Positions 17,107 to 23,395 of a stretch of 64,000 nucleotides of DNA are shown here, piece by piece. The stretch is from Halarcobacter anaerophilus (GTDB lineage: Bacteria; Campylobacterota; Campylobacteria; Campylobacterales; Arcobacteraceae): the NCBI RefSeq assembly GCF_006459125.1, contig NZ_CP041070.1:620001-684000 (forward strand). The letters run 5' to 3'. A program made the translations under genes and the position numbers. The number at the start of each line of letters is the position of its first letter. Within the stretch, counting starts at the first letter, position 1. The notes beneath the pieces were generated by a model that was not told where the DNA came from, ran no database searches, and saw only the letters and a list, made by a program, of their open reading frames with translations.

Positions 17107-17697
17107 ATGTTTGATAGTATTGTTGCAAAAGAGGGTAAAAGACCGATTTTAATTATTTTTATAATATTTTTGTTTTTATTTATAATTGATTGTGATTTTT
17201 TAGCATTTTTATCTTTTGTGGCATTACTCTTTTCTATCTTTATATATAGATTTAAATATATAGATATAACTGCACATGAAAAGGACAAAATATATACTCC
17301 CGTTTCAGGGAGAATAAGCTCTATAGACAGTGACGGCTTTAAAAAAAGTATCACGATAGACGTAGGGCTTTGCGATTTGCATATTTTAAGAAGTTTAGAA
17401 GATGCAGAAGTTAAAATCACTCAAAAAAGAGGTATAAATCTACCTCTTGGAACATATAAAGCAAAAAAATTAAACGAACAAATCTTAATTGAATATGATA
17501 AGATAAGTATGGAATTATTATCTTCTTTATGTAACCCTTCAATTAGAATAGAAGAAAAAACAAGTTTTAAAAAAGGTGAAAAAATAGGTATGTTTTTTCA
17601 CGGAAAAGTTATTGTACATCTTGATAAAGATATGCAAGTAAAAGTAAAACTTGGAGAAAAACTTATATCGGGGAAATCAGTTATAGCAACATTTTAA
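17107..17697 (+). CDS. Phosphatidylserine decarboxylase-like membrane protein, catalytic Ser missing
   Basis: The 196-residue protein has two N-terminal membrane segments (about 13-48) followed by a domain that lines up with small Psd proteins: IYTPVSGRISSID, CDLHILRSL, and the C-terminal GEKIGMFFHGKVIVHL. In true Psd the last segment carries a Gly-Ser whose cleavage makes the pyruvoyl cofactor. Here the serine is replaced (HGK), so the protein should not self-process. I infer a non-catalytic or altered role. A Psd-related gene after ftsH is, as I recall, also found in Campylobacter, where pssA follows; pssA is absent at this site here. Confidence 0.7.
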   Translation: MFDSIVAKEGKRPILIIFIIFLFLFIIDCDFLAFLSFVALLFSIFIYRFKYIDITAHEKDKIYTPVSGRISSIDSDGFKKSITIDVGLCDLHILRSLEDAEVKITQKRGINLPLGTYKAKKLNEQILIEYDKISMELLSSLCNPSIRIEEKTSFKKGEKIGMFFHGKVIVHLDKDMQVKVKLGEKLISGKSVIATF

Positions 17698-17741
17698 TAA
17701 TATCTTTTATTTAATTAATATATAAAATGATATTATTTTAA

Positions 17742-19352
17742 ATGCCAAAATATAAAACTAAATTATCAACGATTATTATTCTGTTTTTAACTCTTTTTAT
17801 AGGGATATCTTTTGTTCTTCGTTATTATCTTATTGAAAATACAAAATTAAAATATCTAAAAAACGAACAAATCTTTTTTTACAAACTTCAAAATGAATCA
17901 AACAGTTTATTAACATATATCTTATATCAATATAGTAGTGAAAGAGAAAATCTTAAAAAACTACATCAAAAGGTTGTAAAGTATTTAGTTTCTAACGGAT
18001 ACGATAACTCTTTAGATGAAATATATAATGAGATAAATAAAAATCATCCAAATAAGCCTTACGATATTTATATCACAGATAAAAATTTAACAATAATCAA
18101 TACTACCTATAAGCCTGATTTAGGTTTTAATTTAAGTTTTGCAAAAGAGAGTTTTCTTGAGCATAAAAAAAGAGGAGAGATAGGTGTTTCAGCACCAATA
18201 TTTGAATCATATTCTCAAAAGTTTTTTAGTTATACCGACTCTTTTCTTCCAGATTCAAACAGAGTTGTTCAAGTAAGTTTTAAATATAAAAATGCAGATA
18301 ATAAACTTGAAAAAATCTACTCACTTGTTAATAAAAACAGTACGGTATCAAGTTATAGAGCCTATACAATTTCAAAAGACGGATATATAGGAGACTTTAT
18401 TTTTAAAAAGTTTAAAGGTAGAAAATTATCTTTAGATGAAATGAAAAAAATAAAAAACGATGTTAAAAATATTGTCAAAAAGATGGACAAAAACTTTATA
18501 AAAATAGATAAATCATATAAAACACTATATGCAAAACAACAATCTATAATTTTTGATGATATAAAAATTATTTATAGTCTTACTTTTGATAAAAGTTTTT
18601 TACAAAATGAAATTGATAAAATAGATATTATATACATTATTTTACTCTTAATAGGACTTCTTACAATATATATACTTTTTAAAATAAGAGACAAAGAGAT
18701 ACTACTTAATCAAAAAGATATGTTTATAAAACACTCTGTCCATGAAATAAAAACACCTTTAAGCATAATTCTTTTAAACAATCAACTAAGAGATAAAATA
18801 AAAGGGAAAGATAGTTATTCGCTTAAAATAGAAGGGGCAATAAAAACTCTTAAAAATTCTTATGATGATATGACTTTTTTGATGACTAGAAATAAATTGG
18901 ATTATTCAATCAAAAAAATAGAGTTGTCTAAATGTTTAAAAGAGAGAGTTGAGTATTTTTCTACCATAGCTACGGCTCAAGGAAGAGAGATAAAACTTCA
19001 AATAAACAGTAAGTGTATTGTAAAAATGGATAAAAAAGAGTTGATAAGACTAATAGATAATAATCTGTCAAATGCAATAAAATATAGTAAGTTACATTCC
19101 CTTATAGAAGTTACTTTGGAAAACAATATATTAAATTTCACAAGTCAAGGAGATAAAATTGTCGATAAAAAGGCAATTTTTGATAAATATAAAAGAGAAA
19201 ACAGTTCAATAGGAGGTCATGGATTAGGATTAAGTATAGTAAAAGATATTACACAAAAATATAATATAAAAAAAGATGTAATATCTAAAAAAGGAGTAAA
19301 TAGTTTTATTTATTATCTTAACTGCCACAATCCTGCCACGAAAAAAGATTAA
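17742..19352 (+). CDS. Membrane sensor histidine kinase
   Basis: The 536-residue kinase has a first membrane segment at residues 8-27, a periplasmic sensor region of about 260 residues and a second segment (IYIILLLIGLLTIYILF). The HisKA motif is SVHEIKTPLSIILLNNQ with the phosphorylated His near 334. The ATP domain shows DNNLSNAIKYS (N box) and GGHGLGLSIV (G2 box). It is the partner of the OmpR-type regulator 8 bases downstream. No clear ribosome binding site precedes the ATG. The signal is unknown; the next gene after the regulator is a flagellin, which is only a contextual hint. Confidence 0.92.
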   Translation: MPKYKTKLSTIIILFLTLFIGISFVLRYYLIENTKLKYLKNEQIFFYKLQNESNSLLTYILYQYSSERENLKKLHQKVVKYLVSNGYDNSLDEIYNEINKNHPNKPYDIYITDKNLTIINTTYKPDLGFNLSFAKESFLEHKKRGEIGVSAPIFESYSQKFFSYTDSFLPDSNRVVQVSFKYKNADNKLEKIYSLVNKNSTVSSYRAYTISKDGYIGDFIFKKFKGRKLSLDEMKKIKNDVKNIVKKMDKNFIKIDKSYKTLYAKQQSIIFDDIKIIYSLTFDKSFLQNEIDKIDIIYIILLLIGLLTIYILFKIRDKEILLNQKDMFIKHSVHEIKTPLSIILLNNQLRDKIKGKDSYSLKIEGAIKTLKNSYDDMTFLMTRNKLDYSIKKIELSKCLKERVEYFSTIATAQGREIKLQINSKCIVKMDKKELIRLIDNNLSNAIKYSKLHSLIEVTLENNILNFTSQGDKIVDKKAIFDKYKRENSSIGGHGLGLSIVKDITQKYNIKKDVISKKGVNSFIYYLNCHNPATKKD

Positions 19353-19360
19353 AATGCCAT

Positions 19361-20005
19361 ATGAAAATTTTTTTATTAGAAGATGATTATAGTTTAAATA
19401 CCGCAATTAAAGAATCTTTGGAATTAGAAAATCACAATGTAGAGAGTTTTTATGACGGCTTACAGGCTTTAGATAGTCTCTCTTCTTTATATGATTTATA
19501 TATTCTAGATATAAATACACCTACACTAGAAGGGATATCCTTAATTGAATCCATAAAAAGAATAAGTAAAAAAATAAAAGTAATAATGATAAGTGCAATA
19601 ATAGATATCGATAAAATCAGAGAATCATATAACAAAGGGTGTGATGATTATCTAAAAAAACCTTTTGATATAGAAGAGTTGCTTCTAAAAATTAAAAAAT
19701 ATGATTTAGAAAGAAGTGAAACTAATATTGAATTATCAAAAAATATTCATTATTCTTTAATAGATAAAAAGTTTTATATAAATAATAAAAATGTGCATCT
19801 AACAAAAAACGAACAAGCCTTTTTACATCTTTTAATTCTAAATAAAAACAGTATAGTAACAAATTCTCAAATAGAAGATTATGTTTATGAAGGAGAATCC
19901 AAAACTTCCGTAGCAATAAGAAGTATGGTAAAAAGATTAAGAAAAAAACTATCAAACAATATAATAGAAACCGTAAATCAAGAAGGTTTTATAATACATT
20001 TATAG
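19361..20005 (+). CDS. OmpR-family response regulator
   Basis: The 214-residue protein has a receiver domain (E7/D8/D9, phospho-acceptor D50 in YILDINTP, and the YLKKPFD lysine) and a C-terminal winged-helix domain (HLTKNEQAFLHLL, then TSVAIRSMVKRLRKKLS and a final hairpin). It should bind DNA when phosphorylated by the kinase encoded immediately upstream. The flagellin gene follows 81 bases later in the same direction, and could be a target, but no repeated binding site was recognised in the gap. Confidence 0.93.
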   Translation: MKIFLLEDDYSLNTAIKESLELENHNVESFYDGLQALDSLSSLYDLYILDINTPTLEGISLIESIKRISKKIKVIMISAIIDIDKIRESYNKGCDDYLKKPFDIEELLLKIKKYDLERSETNIELSKNIHYSLIDKKFYINNKNVHLTKNEQAFLHLLILNKNSIVTNSQIEDYVYEGESKTSVAIRSMVKRLRKKLSNNIIETVNQEGFIIHL

Positions 20006-20086
20006 AAATTTCTTTAGACAACTCTGACACATATTAGCCACAAATTCATCATATAATCAATTTAATAATTCTTAAATAGGTTATAA

Positions 20087-21523
20087 ATGTTACTAAATAA
20101 TTCTTTTTTAACTCTTAATAATAGTACATTAAACCAAAAAAAATTATCCCAATCTTTAAATAAATTATCTACTTCCCTTGAAATAAATAAAGCCAGTGAT
20201 GATGCTTCAGGACTTGCGATTGCAGATAAACTAAGAACCCAAGCAAGTGGTATTAAACAAGGAATTGAAAATGCAAACAGTGCAATAGCAATGATGAATA
20301 TTGCTGATAAAAGTATGGATGAACTTAGTAATATTTTAGATAATATAAAAGCAAAAGCAATACAAATGAATACTGATACCACCTCTGAAGAAGGCAGAAT
20401 TATAATTAAAACAGAAATCTTAAAATTAATTGAGGCTTATGATAATATTGTTTGCAGTACAAATTATAATACAACACCTTTATTGAATGGTTGTGCGAGT
20501 CCATTTGATTTTCAAGTAGGAGAGGACTCATTTAATATTGTAAGTGTAGATATAAATTCTGTTGCTTCAAAAAATATGGGTTTAGAAGACCCGAATAAAT
20601 TAAATAATTTCATTACAGGATTTGATTCTAATCCCACTGTTATCCCTCCTGAGACAATTGGTTCTTCTGAAGATGGGATTATTTTATCAAATGATCTTGA
20701 TGACAGAGTATCATATAGTTCAAATCCAGCAGGAAATTATATGATTACAATTCCCTCTGGAACTAAGAATTTGACTATTCATTTGGATGACCATGGCGCA
20801 AATGATACAATTCAAGTTTTTACAAAAGATGGAGTTCATGCAGCTGGTACAGTAAGTACAGATTCTAGTTGGAGTTCTGGATATAGCCCTGAAGATATAA
20901 TATCTTTAAATTCAGATAAATTTAATTCAGGTGCTTCATATGTAAATGATTTAACTAGATATACTTTAAATTCTCCAAAAGATGCTTTGGGAGATACTAC
21001 AGTAGAATATGTTGATAAAGAAGGTGAAACTCAAACAAAAGTATTAAATGTAAATGATGAAATGATAGTTATATCCGAAGTTACAGAAGATTTGATCATT
21101 TTTATAAATGGTAACGGTTCTTATGATGTCGGTGCTGAATGGAAGGGTACATCAGAAGGAACGAATACTTCAGAAGAAGATGAAACTTGCAGCTGTGAAA
21201 ATTTAAATTTAGTTAGAAATGATACTAATCCAGATTTAAAGATTCAATCCCAAATATTGATGGACGTTATAAACTCATCTCTAACTCAATTAAACTCACA
21301 AAGGGCAAATGTCGGTTCAGGAACAAACCAATTAGAATCTTCAGTAAGAAATTCTTTAACAAACTATACAAATATAAAAAATGCCGAAAGTATAATAAGA
21401 GATGTCGATTATGCAAAAGAGAGTGCGAATTTCAATAAGTTAAATATAATAAATCAAGCAGGTTCTTTTGTTCAAGCCCAACAAAATGAAACTATGAAAA
21501 GAGTATTAGATTTACTAAAGTAA
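20087..21523 (+). CDS. Flagellin with inserted surface domain and cysteines
   Basis: The 478-residue protein has conserved flagellin ends: residues 1-110 (LSQSLNKLSTSLEINKASDD, GLAIADKLRTQA) and 390-478 (LNSQRANVGSG...VQAQQNETMKRVLDLL). The centre, about 150-380, is a beta-rich acidic domain (NYMITIPSGTKNLTIHLDDHG) exposed on the filament surface. Four cysteines (123, 136, 368, 370) are unusual for a flagellin; 368-370 form CSC in an acidic linker. The N-terminus (MLLNNSFLTLNNST) also differs from the usual MGFRINTN. It could be a minor or specialised flagellin. No sigma-28 or sigma-54 promoter was clear. Confidence 0.9.
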   Translation: MLLNNSFLTLNNSTLNQKKLSQSLNKLSTSLEINKASDDASGLAIADKLRTQASGIKQGIENANSAIAMMNIADKSMDELSNILDNIKAKAIQMNTDTTSEEGRIIIKTEILKLIEAYDNIVCSTNYNTTPLLNGCASPFDFQVGEDSFNIVSVDINSVASKNMGLEDPNKLNNFITGFDSNPTVIPPETIGSSEDGIILSNDLDDRVSYSSNPAGNYMITIPSGTKNLTIHLDDHGANDTIQVFTKDGVHAAGTVSTDSSWSSGYSPEDIISLNSDKFNSGASYVNDLTRYTLNSPKDALGDTTVEYVDKEGETQTKVLNVNDEMIVISEVTEDLIIFINGNGSYDVGAEWKGTSEGTNTSEEDETCSCENLNLVRNDTNPDLKIQSQILMDVINSSLTQLNSQRANVGSGTNQLESSVRNSLTNYTNIKNAESIIRDVDYAKESANFNKLNIINQAGSFVQAQQNETMKRVLDLLK

Positions 21524-21602: not shown

Positions 21603-21631
21603 TTGACAAACAATCCATAAATTTATATAAT
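21603..21631 (+). promoter_or_regulatory. Sigma-70 promoter of the leu leader
   Basis: TTGACA (21603-21608) and TATAAT (21626-21631) are both perfect and 17 bases apart. The inverted repeat AGAGTT-N6-AACTCT (21586-21603) touches the -35 box and could be an operator. Transcription would begin near 21638, about 23 bases before the leader peptide start. Confidence 0.85.
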
Positions 21632-21660
21632 GACAAACTTTAAAATTTTAGGAGAGTAAA

Positions 21661-21738
21661 ATGAAAATATTTGATTTTTTCAACAACAATTTCATAAAAA
21701 GTGTTAACTCTCTTCTGCTTCTTTCAAAATCACTCTAA
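21661..21738 (+). CDS. Leucine leader peptide for leuA
   Basis: The frame encodes 25 residues, MKIFDFFNNNFIKSVNS followed by LLLLSKSL, so four consecutive leucine codons (CTT CTG CTT CTT) occur near the end and a fifth (CTC) is the last codon. AGGAG lies 6 bases before the ATG, and a perfect sigma-70 promoter lies upstream. The next gene is leuA, the first enzyme of leucine synthesis. Together these are the hallmarks of an amino-acid leader peptide in which ribosome stalling at leucine codons senses leucyl-tRNA. A classical terminator hairpin is not obvious in the 103 bases before leuA, so the mechanism may be translational or use weak AT-rich structure. Confidence 0.8.
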   Translation: MKIFDFFNNNFIKSVNSLLLLSKSL

Positions 21739-21809
21739 TATTTAACTTTAAAATAACAAAAATCAAAATTTACGAACATAGGTTTACTTTTTTTACAATA
21801 AAAAAAAGG

Positions 21810-21815
21810 TATAAT
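21810..21815 (+). promoter_or_regulatory. Possible internal -10 box before leuA
   Basis: TATAAT lies 27 bases before the leuA start. The -35 region is only T-rich (17 bases upstream is CTTTTT), so activity is uncertain. If used, it would bypass the leader peptide. Confidence 0.3.
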
Positions 21816-21841
21816 GCGTCACTTTTACAAGGGTAATAATT

Positions 21842-23395
21842 ATGGATAAGAATAAAATTTACGTATTTGATACTACATTAAGAGATGGAGAACAATCTCC
21901 TGGTTGTTCTATGAATACAGAAGAGAAAATAAGAGTTGCATTACAATTAGAAAAATTGGGTGTGGATATTATAGAAGCAGGATTTGCAGCAGCAAGTCCC
22001 GGAGATTTTGATGCTGTAAGCAGAATAGCGGAAGTTGTTAAAAACTCTTCAATCTGTTCTTTAAGCAGAGCTATTGAAAATGATATCAAACAAGCAGGAC
22101 TTGCGGTTCAAAATGCACCGAAACACAGAATCCACACTTTTATTGCTACTTCACCGATACATATGAAATATAAATTAAAAATGAGTGAAGATGAGGTTAT
22201 CAAAAGAGCCGTAAGAGCAGTAGAGTATGCAAAAACTTTTGTTGATGATGTTGAGTTCTCATTGGAAGATGCGGGAAGATCTGAAATCCCTTTTATGAAA
22301 GAGGTTATGGATGCTGTTATAAGTGCGGGAGCTACAACTATCAACTTACCTGATACAGTTGGATATAGATTACCCAGCGAATTAGGTGCTATGGTAAAAG
22401 AGTTAAGTGATTTCGCAGGTGACAGAGCTATAATTTCAGTACACAATCACAATGATTTGGGTTTGGCTACTGCAAATACTTTAGCTTCGGTTGTAAACGG
22501 AGCGAGACAAATTGAAGTAACAATCAACGGTTTAGGTGAAAGAGCAGGAAACTCAGCTTTAGAAGAAGCTGTAATGGCAATAAAAACTAGAGGTGATGCT
22601 TTCGGCGGATTGTATACTGATATTAATACTCCTGAAATCTATCCTACTTCAAGATTAGTTGCAACAATAACAGGTGTTGAACCGCAACAAAACAAAGCAA
22701 TAGTCGGTAAAAATGCATTTTCACATGAAAGTGGAATCCACCAAGACGGTGTTTTAAAACATCAAGAGACATATGAAATTATGAAACCTGAAGATGTGGG
22801 AGTATTCAAAGATTCTACATTGATTTTAGGAAAACACTCGGGAAGAGCTGCCTTTAGAGACAAAATCAAACAGTTAGGATTTGATAAAGTAAGTGATGAA
22901 GAGTTAAACGCAACCTTTGAAAAATTTAAAGTTTTAGCCGATAAGAAAAAAGATATAACAGATGATGATGTTAGAATGTTAATTACGGATGAAGCATTAA
23001 ATTCAGATAAAACTTACGATTTATTGGGCTTACAAATCTCTGATTGTTCAAACGGTATGCCAATGGCAGCAGTTACAATCAAATATAAAGATGAGATTAT
23101 ACAAGATGCAAATATCGGTGACGGTACTATGGATGCAATCTTTAAAACAATCGACAGACTTACAGGTTATGACGGTCAATTAAAAGATTATAAAGTTTTA
23201 TCCGTAACTGAAGGAAAAGATGCTTTGGCAAAAGTTACAGCTAGAGTCTCTTTTGATGAAGCTTCACCTGAGTTTGTAGGTCACGGCTTAAGTATTGATA
23301 CTATGATGGCAACTGCAAAGGCTTATTTAGGAGCCGTTAACTCTTATCTTTCTCAAAAAGAGAGATTGTCTAAAAAAACAGAACACCAAGTATAA
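21842..23395 (+). CDS. leuA: 2-isopropylmalate synthase
   Basis: LeuA condenses acetyl-CoA with 2-oxoisovalerate, the committed step of leucine synthesis. The 517-residue protein shows [16 protein letters not shown] with the metal-binding Asp, [16 protein letters not shown] with the metal-binding histidines, and NGLGERAGN. The C-terminal 130 residues form the regulatory dimerisation domain that normally binds leucine, so feedback inhibition is expected. AAGGG precedes the ATG by 8 bases. A leucine-rich leader peptide upstream adds a second level of control. No other leu gene follows. Confidence 0.98.

Follow-up and report, generated by a model that had tools for sequence, protein, structure and literature searches.

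A leucine leader peptide before leuA of Halarcobacter anaerophilus whose control codons are predicted to pair with the leader's own ribosome binding site

How might a short, leucine-rich reading frame control leuA, the 2-isopropylmalate synthase gene that follows it, if nothing resembling an intrinsic terminator lies between the two? The question is raised by the leuL-leuA locus of Halarcobacter anaerophilus, which we studied within a 64,000 nucleotide (nt) window (the whole stretch of DNA analysed, G000:C1:620001-684000) of this 3.02-Mb Arcobacteraceae-like genome. Comparison of 102 leucine leaders gives strong support to a predicted hairpin in which the Shine-Dalgarno sequence (SD) of the leader pairs with the start of the leader's own leucine codons, and whose two arms co-vary between lineages. 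We lean towards reading the locus as a leucine attenuator that is sensed by the ribosome, has a self-closing leader and is probably Rho-dependent; the leader itself, its codon bias, the hairpin, the constraint on the peptide and the absence of an intrinsic terminator are the parts of this reading that the comparison supports. The features of the locus are as follows.

21603..21631, + strand: promoter P1, TTGACA, 17-base spacer and TATAAT, predicted to drive leuL (12/12 consensus positions)
21603-21608, + strand: P1 -35 box, TTGACA
21626-21631, + strand: P1 -10 box, TATAAT
21650-21656, + strand: AGGAGAG, ribosome site (SD) of leuL
21650..21657, + strand: 5' arm of the hairpin, AGGAGAGT, which includes the leuL SD (predicted fold; co-variation across the order)
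21661..21738, + strand: leuL, encoding the 25-codon leader peptide MKIFDFFNNNFIKSVNSLLLLSKSL (open reading frame (ORF), orthologues before leuA, and the ratio of nonsynonymous to synonymous substitution rates (dN/dS))
21707..21714, + strand: 3' arm of the hairpin, ACTCTCTT, whose last bases are the first leucine codon (predicted 8-bp duplex with the SD)
21712..21723, + strand: control codons CTT CTG CTT CTT, codons 18-21 of leuL
21733-21735, + strand: fifth leucine codon, CTC, codon 25 of leuL
21739..21809, + strand: untranslated stretch that lacks an intrinsic terminator and where transcription might end prematurely, in Rho fashion (homologous tails)
21786..21815, + strand: candidate promoter P2, a T-tract/A-tract inverted repeat (21786-21810) and then TATAAT (21810-21815)
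21842..23395, + strand: leuA, 2-isopropylmalate synthase, the regulated gene (517-amino acid (aa) ORF)

The first-pass annotation of this DNA had proposed a perfect sigma-70 promoter, a good ribosome binding site and a 25-codon frame with four adjacent leucine codons and a terminal fifth, followed by leuA, and all of these are present at the coordinates above. leuL begins with the ATG at 21661 and closes with the TAA ending at 21738, five of its last eight residues are leucine, and 103 untranslated bases separate its stop from leuA, whose protein is 80-94% identical to those of the nearest Arcobacteraceae relatives. With a relative's leader peptide as query over 60 related genomes, the leader was found in 27 of them (E <= 4.4e-4), once per genome and at the leuA locus, with no significant second copy in that search. 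It is present in 16 of 16 examined genomes of the same genus and in most other Arcobacteraceae, at a nearly constant spacing to leuA, and is absent from some family members in which leuA directly follows another gene. The Arcobacteraceae consensus peptide is MKIFxFYNNHFIKSVN[ST]LLLLxxSL, and the P1 promoter (TTGACAAA and TAtAaT), the GGAGAG of the 5' arm, the CTC-TAA end and the downstream TATAAT are all nearly invariant in the family alignment. Conservation of the leucine codons across the Arcobacteraceae, which the annotation had suggested as a check, was examined and the leucine run is conserved; a chance ORF is ruled out by this conservation together with dN/dS (below). The leucine leaders of other Campylobacterales differ in their bodies; a type that is widespread among them carries KSIKxLPKIEIKN immediately ahead of the leucines.

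leuL belongs to the known LeuL leaders of Campylobacterota, which were predicted in 2013 from a comparison of genomes that included three Arcobacter and were found in most genomes with leucine genes (PMC3847290); the start codon of the Campylobacter jejuni LeuL was occupied by ribosomes in a 2025 Ribo-seq study (PMC11955535). Such leaders are ORFs of 20-35 aa with a ribosome site directly before leuA, and leuL has 25 aa and AGGAGAG. They also carry several C-terminal leucines with rare codons, and here CTC and CTG are rare and CTT is not. Measured against the genes of the window rather than the whole genome (the same baseline as for the SD statistics), CTC makes up 1.5% of leucine codons versus 30% in Arcobacteraceae leaders, TTA 45% versus 4%, and TTA plus TTG 60% versus 8%; CTG and CTT account for 4.3% and 26% of leucine codons in window genes. 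This bias in the leaders points to sensing of tRNA.

leuL has an SD that is complementary to the opening bases of the leucine run, a relationship first noticed in distant leaders. At this locus AGGAGAGU (21650-21657) is predicted to form an 8-bp helix of -10.3 kcal/mol with ACUCUCUU (21707-21714). In the set of 102 leaders (a group of minus-strand loci stands outside these statistics) the first GG of the SD and the first leucine codon served as anchors of the pairing register; one register is set apart by having 79% of its cells paired, against 68% in the next best, and two pairs flanking the SD core co-vary with z about 5 each. Arms taken from the same leader pair better than permuted arms (z -9.7, 0 of 3000 permutations as good). 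The permutation tests ignore relatedness except in a subset of 34 leaders with <50% peptide similarity, where own arms give -9.8 and permuted arms -7.9 kcal/mol (z -6.2, 0 of 5000); restricting the count to bases beyond the SD core gave z -3.5 (1 of 5000). The arms can differ in sequence between leaders, as in AGGAGGATAG/CTATCCTCCT (L154), AGGAGGTTG/CAACCTTCT (L036) and AGGAGATAGATT/AATCTACTCCT (L037), and across the 102 leaders pairing stays within roughly -6 to +6 relative to the first leucine codon. The SD has a predicted accessibility of 0.07, against 0.25 in synonymous recodings, and is less accessible than in the recodings at 94 of 102 loci; at this locus the value is predicted to rise from 0.03 to 0.52 if a ribosome footprint covers the first leucine codons. 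The whole 233-nt leader folds no better than shuffled sequences (z +1.5), so single-sequence folding alone would miss the hairpin. We note that in one genome (L033/L107 of G030) the leucine run is broken (TLNLSRITL) and the SD-complementary ACTCTC is nonetheless retained.

No intrinsic terminator (hairpin plus U-tract) was found before leuA in 99 of 102 leader-to-leuA stretches, and this locus is not among the three tails with terminator-like sites, which upholds the first-pass observation that no G+C-rich terminator separates leader and leuA. C exceeds G in 95 of the 102 tails (C/G 2.17) and C/G reaches 6.16 from the leucine run to the stop, compared with 0.96 ahead of the leaders and 1.04 in 26 regions upstream of other genes in the window, 15 of which have more C than G. 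The genome encodes Rho (PF07497 match, 96 bits), and the LeuL RNA of C. jejuni is reported to end shortly after the leader's stop codon (PMC3847290). Taken together, these findings make Rho the likeliest candidate for the terminating agent.

The reading we prefer would work as follows. RNA from P1 would encode a leader peptide rich in leucine codons of a kind seldom used in the genome, and these codons, once transcribed, would fold back and pair with the leader's own SD. When leucyl-tRNA is ample, the ribosome would complete the peptide and depart, the hairpin would close and further loading would be blocked, and the bare, C-rich and G-poor RNA past the stop would lead to early termination before leuA, most likely by Rho. 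When leucyl-tRNA is scarce, the ribosome would stall on the leucine codons and cover the 3' arm as well as a large part of the C-rich stretch; this would leave the SD open to more ribosomes, and transcription would continue into leuA. In Arcobacteraceae, a promoter after the leader could provide basal leuA expression that is independent of leucine. Stalling upon leucine shortage, the role of Rho, the direction of the response and the activity of P2 are the steps of this scheme that we infer.

Several observations weigh against this reading. Within the Arcobacteraceae alone the arms do not co-vary (z 0), but they hardly vary there and the test is therefore uninformative. At this locus taken by itself the pairing beats synonymous recodings only at about the 5-7% level. 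Pairing is absent or barely present in one KIEIKN subgroup and in genus g32, and is therefore not essential everywhere. The SD sequence is in itself ordinary: ilvB of this genome uses AGGAGAG as well. The leader's own tail has a weak skew, with 10 C and 7 G over 21739-21826, and an active P2 would weaken the effect of attenuation.

The first-pass annotation had offered two interpretations beyond the leader peptide itself, an AT-rich attenuator or control of leuA at the level of translation; the leader peptide is supported and matches LeuL (PMC3847290), and neither of the other two is supported by the comparison. A classical attenuator, in which a stalled or a moving ribosome selects an antiterminator or an AT-rich intrinsic terminator hairpin before leuA, would suit a leader that carries control codons, and an A/U inverted repeat, ACTTTTTTTACAATAAAAAAAAGGT, does lie at 21786-21810. 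That hairpin, however, is followed by ATAAT and not by a U-tract, terminator-like sites are confined to the three tails mentioned above, the entire leader is no better folded than shuffled sequences, and the leucine run has no co-varying alternative partner downstream. We consider the classical scheme improbable. The folds showed no mutually exclusive antiterminator built from the strand after the control codons, though alternative pairs were not searched for systematically. Translational control of leuA would resemble the actinobacterial LEU element, in which a leucine-codon run pairs with the leuA SD (PMC1262725): the run would mask that SD until a ribosome stalls on it, and the runs here do contain CUCC/CUUC. 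Yet the run does not co-vary with the leuA SD (z +1.1 in the 34 leaders, +0.5 in all 102), its co-varying partner is the SD of the leader, and the gap between leader and leuA (47-190 nt) varies freely, all of which makes this scheme very improbable.

The peptide itself bears on a further possibility. By simple pairwise counting without a tree, codons 2-16 of 44 Arcobacteraceae-type leaders have a dN/dS of 0.12, against 0.74 and 1.21 for the two alternative frames, which argues that leuL is translated. Likewise, the fourteen codons around PKIEI in 22 leaders of the other type have a dN/dS of 0.14 with synonymous sites saturated, and PKIEI[KR]N is nonetheless almost invariant among them. We note that KSIKxLPKIEIKN stands directly before the leucine codons (L135, L141, L197, L052 and about 20 others, at -120 to -160 from leuA) and hardly varies at the protein level among several families of Campylobacterota. 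Conservation at the protein level is unexpected, as the sequence of a leader outside its control codons is thought not to matter, and conserved residues ahead of the stall site that are selected as protein are what an arrest peptide would have. The residues that immediately precede the leucines (FIKSVN, or KSIKxLPKIEIKN elsewhere) might thus act in the ribosome tunnel, where they would sense leucine or prolong the stall, with hairpin and codons secondary. The leucine codons themselves are, however, the most widely shared feature, N-terminal sequences differ in many lineages and the codon bias suggests tRNA sensing, so that we regard the arrest peptide as rather unlikely to be the primary device. 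Alternatively, the hairpin might merely limit wasteful leader synthesis or pace RNA polymerase, with no part in sensing leucine. The E. coli trp leader has been described as limiting its own synthesis, which counts in favour of this idea, and some lineages keep a leucine leader without the pairing. But in many unrelated leaders the 3' arm lies on the leucine codons and not elsewhere in the ORF, a placement that plain shut-off does not need, and we give this explanation a low probability.

Returning to the ribosome-sensed attenuator that we prefer, its extension to a family of such attenuators across Campylobacterota is possible but doubtful. In that wider form, the control codons would themselves be the anti-SD strand of their own leader, so that a starved ribosome would hold its own ribosome site open; a conserved nascent-chain motif (FIKSVN or KSIKxLPKIEIKN) would reinforce the stall, and Rho would act as the switch in place of an intrinsic terminator.

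A second -10 box just before leuA had been called possible, and it is real: TATAAT lies 32 nt before leuA, and almost every one of the 44 Arcobacteraceae-type leaders is followed by a box of this type some 30-35 nt ahead of leuA, in most cases immediately preceded by a T-tract/A-tract inverted repeat. The conserved box is best read as a candidate second promoter, P2, which would feed leuA without passage through the leader. Elsewhere in the window, -10-like boxes that lie about as far from a gene start likewise have no -35 box, so P2 looks like the ordinary promoter type of this genome and P1, with its TTGACA, like the exception. At the leuA locus of one Arcobacteraceae genome (L055/L109 of G036) the second box (TTGATATAAT) is kept and the leader peptide is seemingly lost. 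The inverted repeat at or just before the P2 -10-like box is seen here (21786-21815) and at L041, L059, L065, L154, L161 and L190; its arms differ between lineages yet stay complementary (CTTTTTTT/AAAAAAAG, TCTAAT..ACCC/GGGT..ATTAGA, CCGATTT/AAATCGG and GCCC/GGGC), and it could be an operator, an RNA hairpin or both.

In this genome no similar leader was seen before ilvB, trpE or two ilvB-like genes, nor before a candidate leuC (an aconitase-family match, not confirmed as leuC), and an Rfam scan of the region matched no leader family. A gene resembling phosphatidylserine decarboxylase adjoins leuL-leuA in several relatives (region 17107-21523 here); in this genome a flagellin-like gene and the genes of a response regulator and a histidine kinase lie between its counterpart (17107-17688) and leuL-leuA.

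Among known systems, the leuL, trpL and hisL leaders of E. coli are likewise rich in the regulating amino acid, use rare control codons and precede the first gene of the pathway. They differ in that no intrinsic terminator or antiterminator was found here, and in that their control codons pair downstream whereas those of leuL would pair upstream, with the SD. The actinobacterial LEU element also has a leader ORF before leuA, a leucine-codon run that pairs with an SD and no clear terminator, but its partner is the downstream leuA SD, with a pseudoknot, and here the partner is the leader's own upstream SD (PMC1262725). As in E. coli tnaC and toiL-topAI, the position of a ribosome on a short ORF would decide Rho termination and RNA pairs with a ribosome site; the signals there are tryptophan or antibiotics, and in toiL (PMC12121999) the occluded site is that of the downstream gene. 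The 2013 survey entered LeuL as a presumed attenuator of the classical kind, without a described terminator or switching structure (PMC3847290), and the main texts on LeuL of C. jejuni and other Epsilonproteobacteria mention no hairpin, SD pairing, peptide motif or second promoter (PMC3847290; PMC11955535). We found no report of the hairpin between SD and leucine codons, of the peptide motifs or of the lack of a terminator, although this is weak evidence since supplements and most subscription journals were not covered. What appears to be new from the 102-leader comparison is the pairing of SD and leucine run, the conservation of residues before the leucines, the absence of an intrinsic terminator and the absence of co-variation with the leuA SD.

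The co-varying hairpin of SD and leucine codons supplies the missing structural part of LeuL, and it provides a testable rule, namely that one short helix couples initiation of the leader to decoding of its leucine codons. If the Rho step is true, leuL-leuA would count as an amino-acid attenuator with no need of an intrinsic terminator, in a group of bacteria in which few RNA switches are known.
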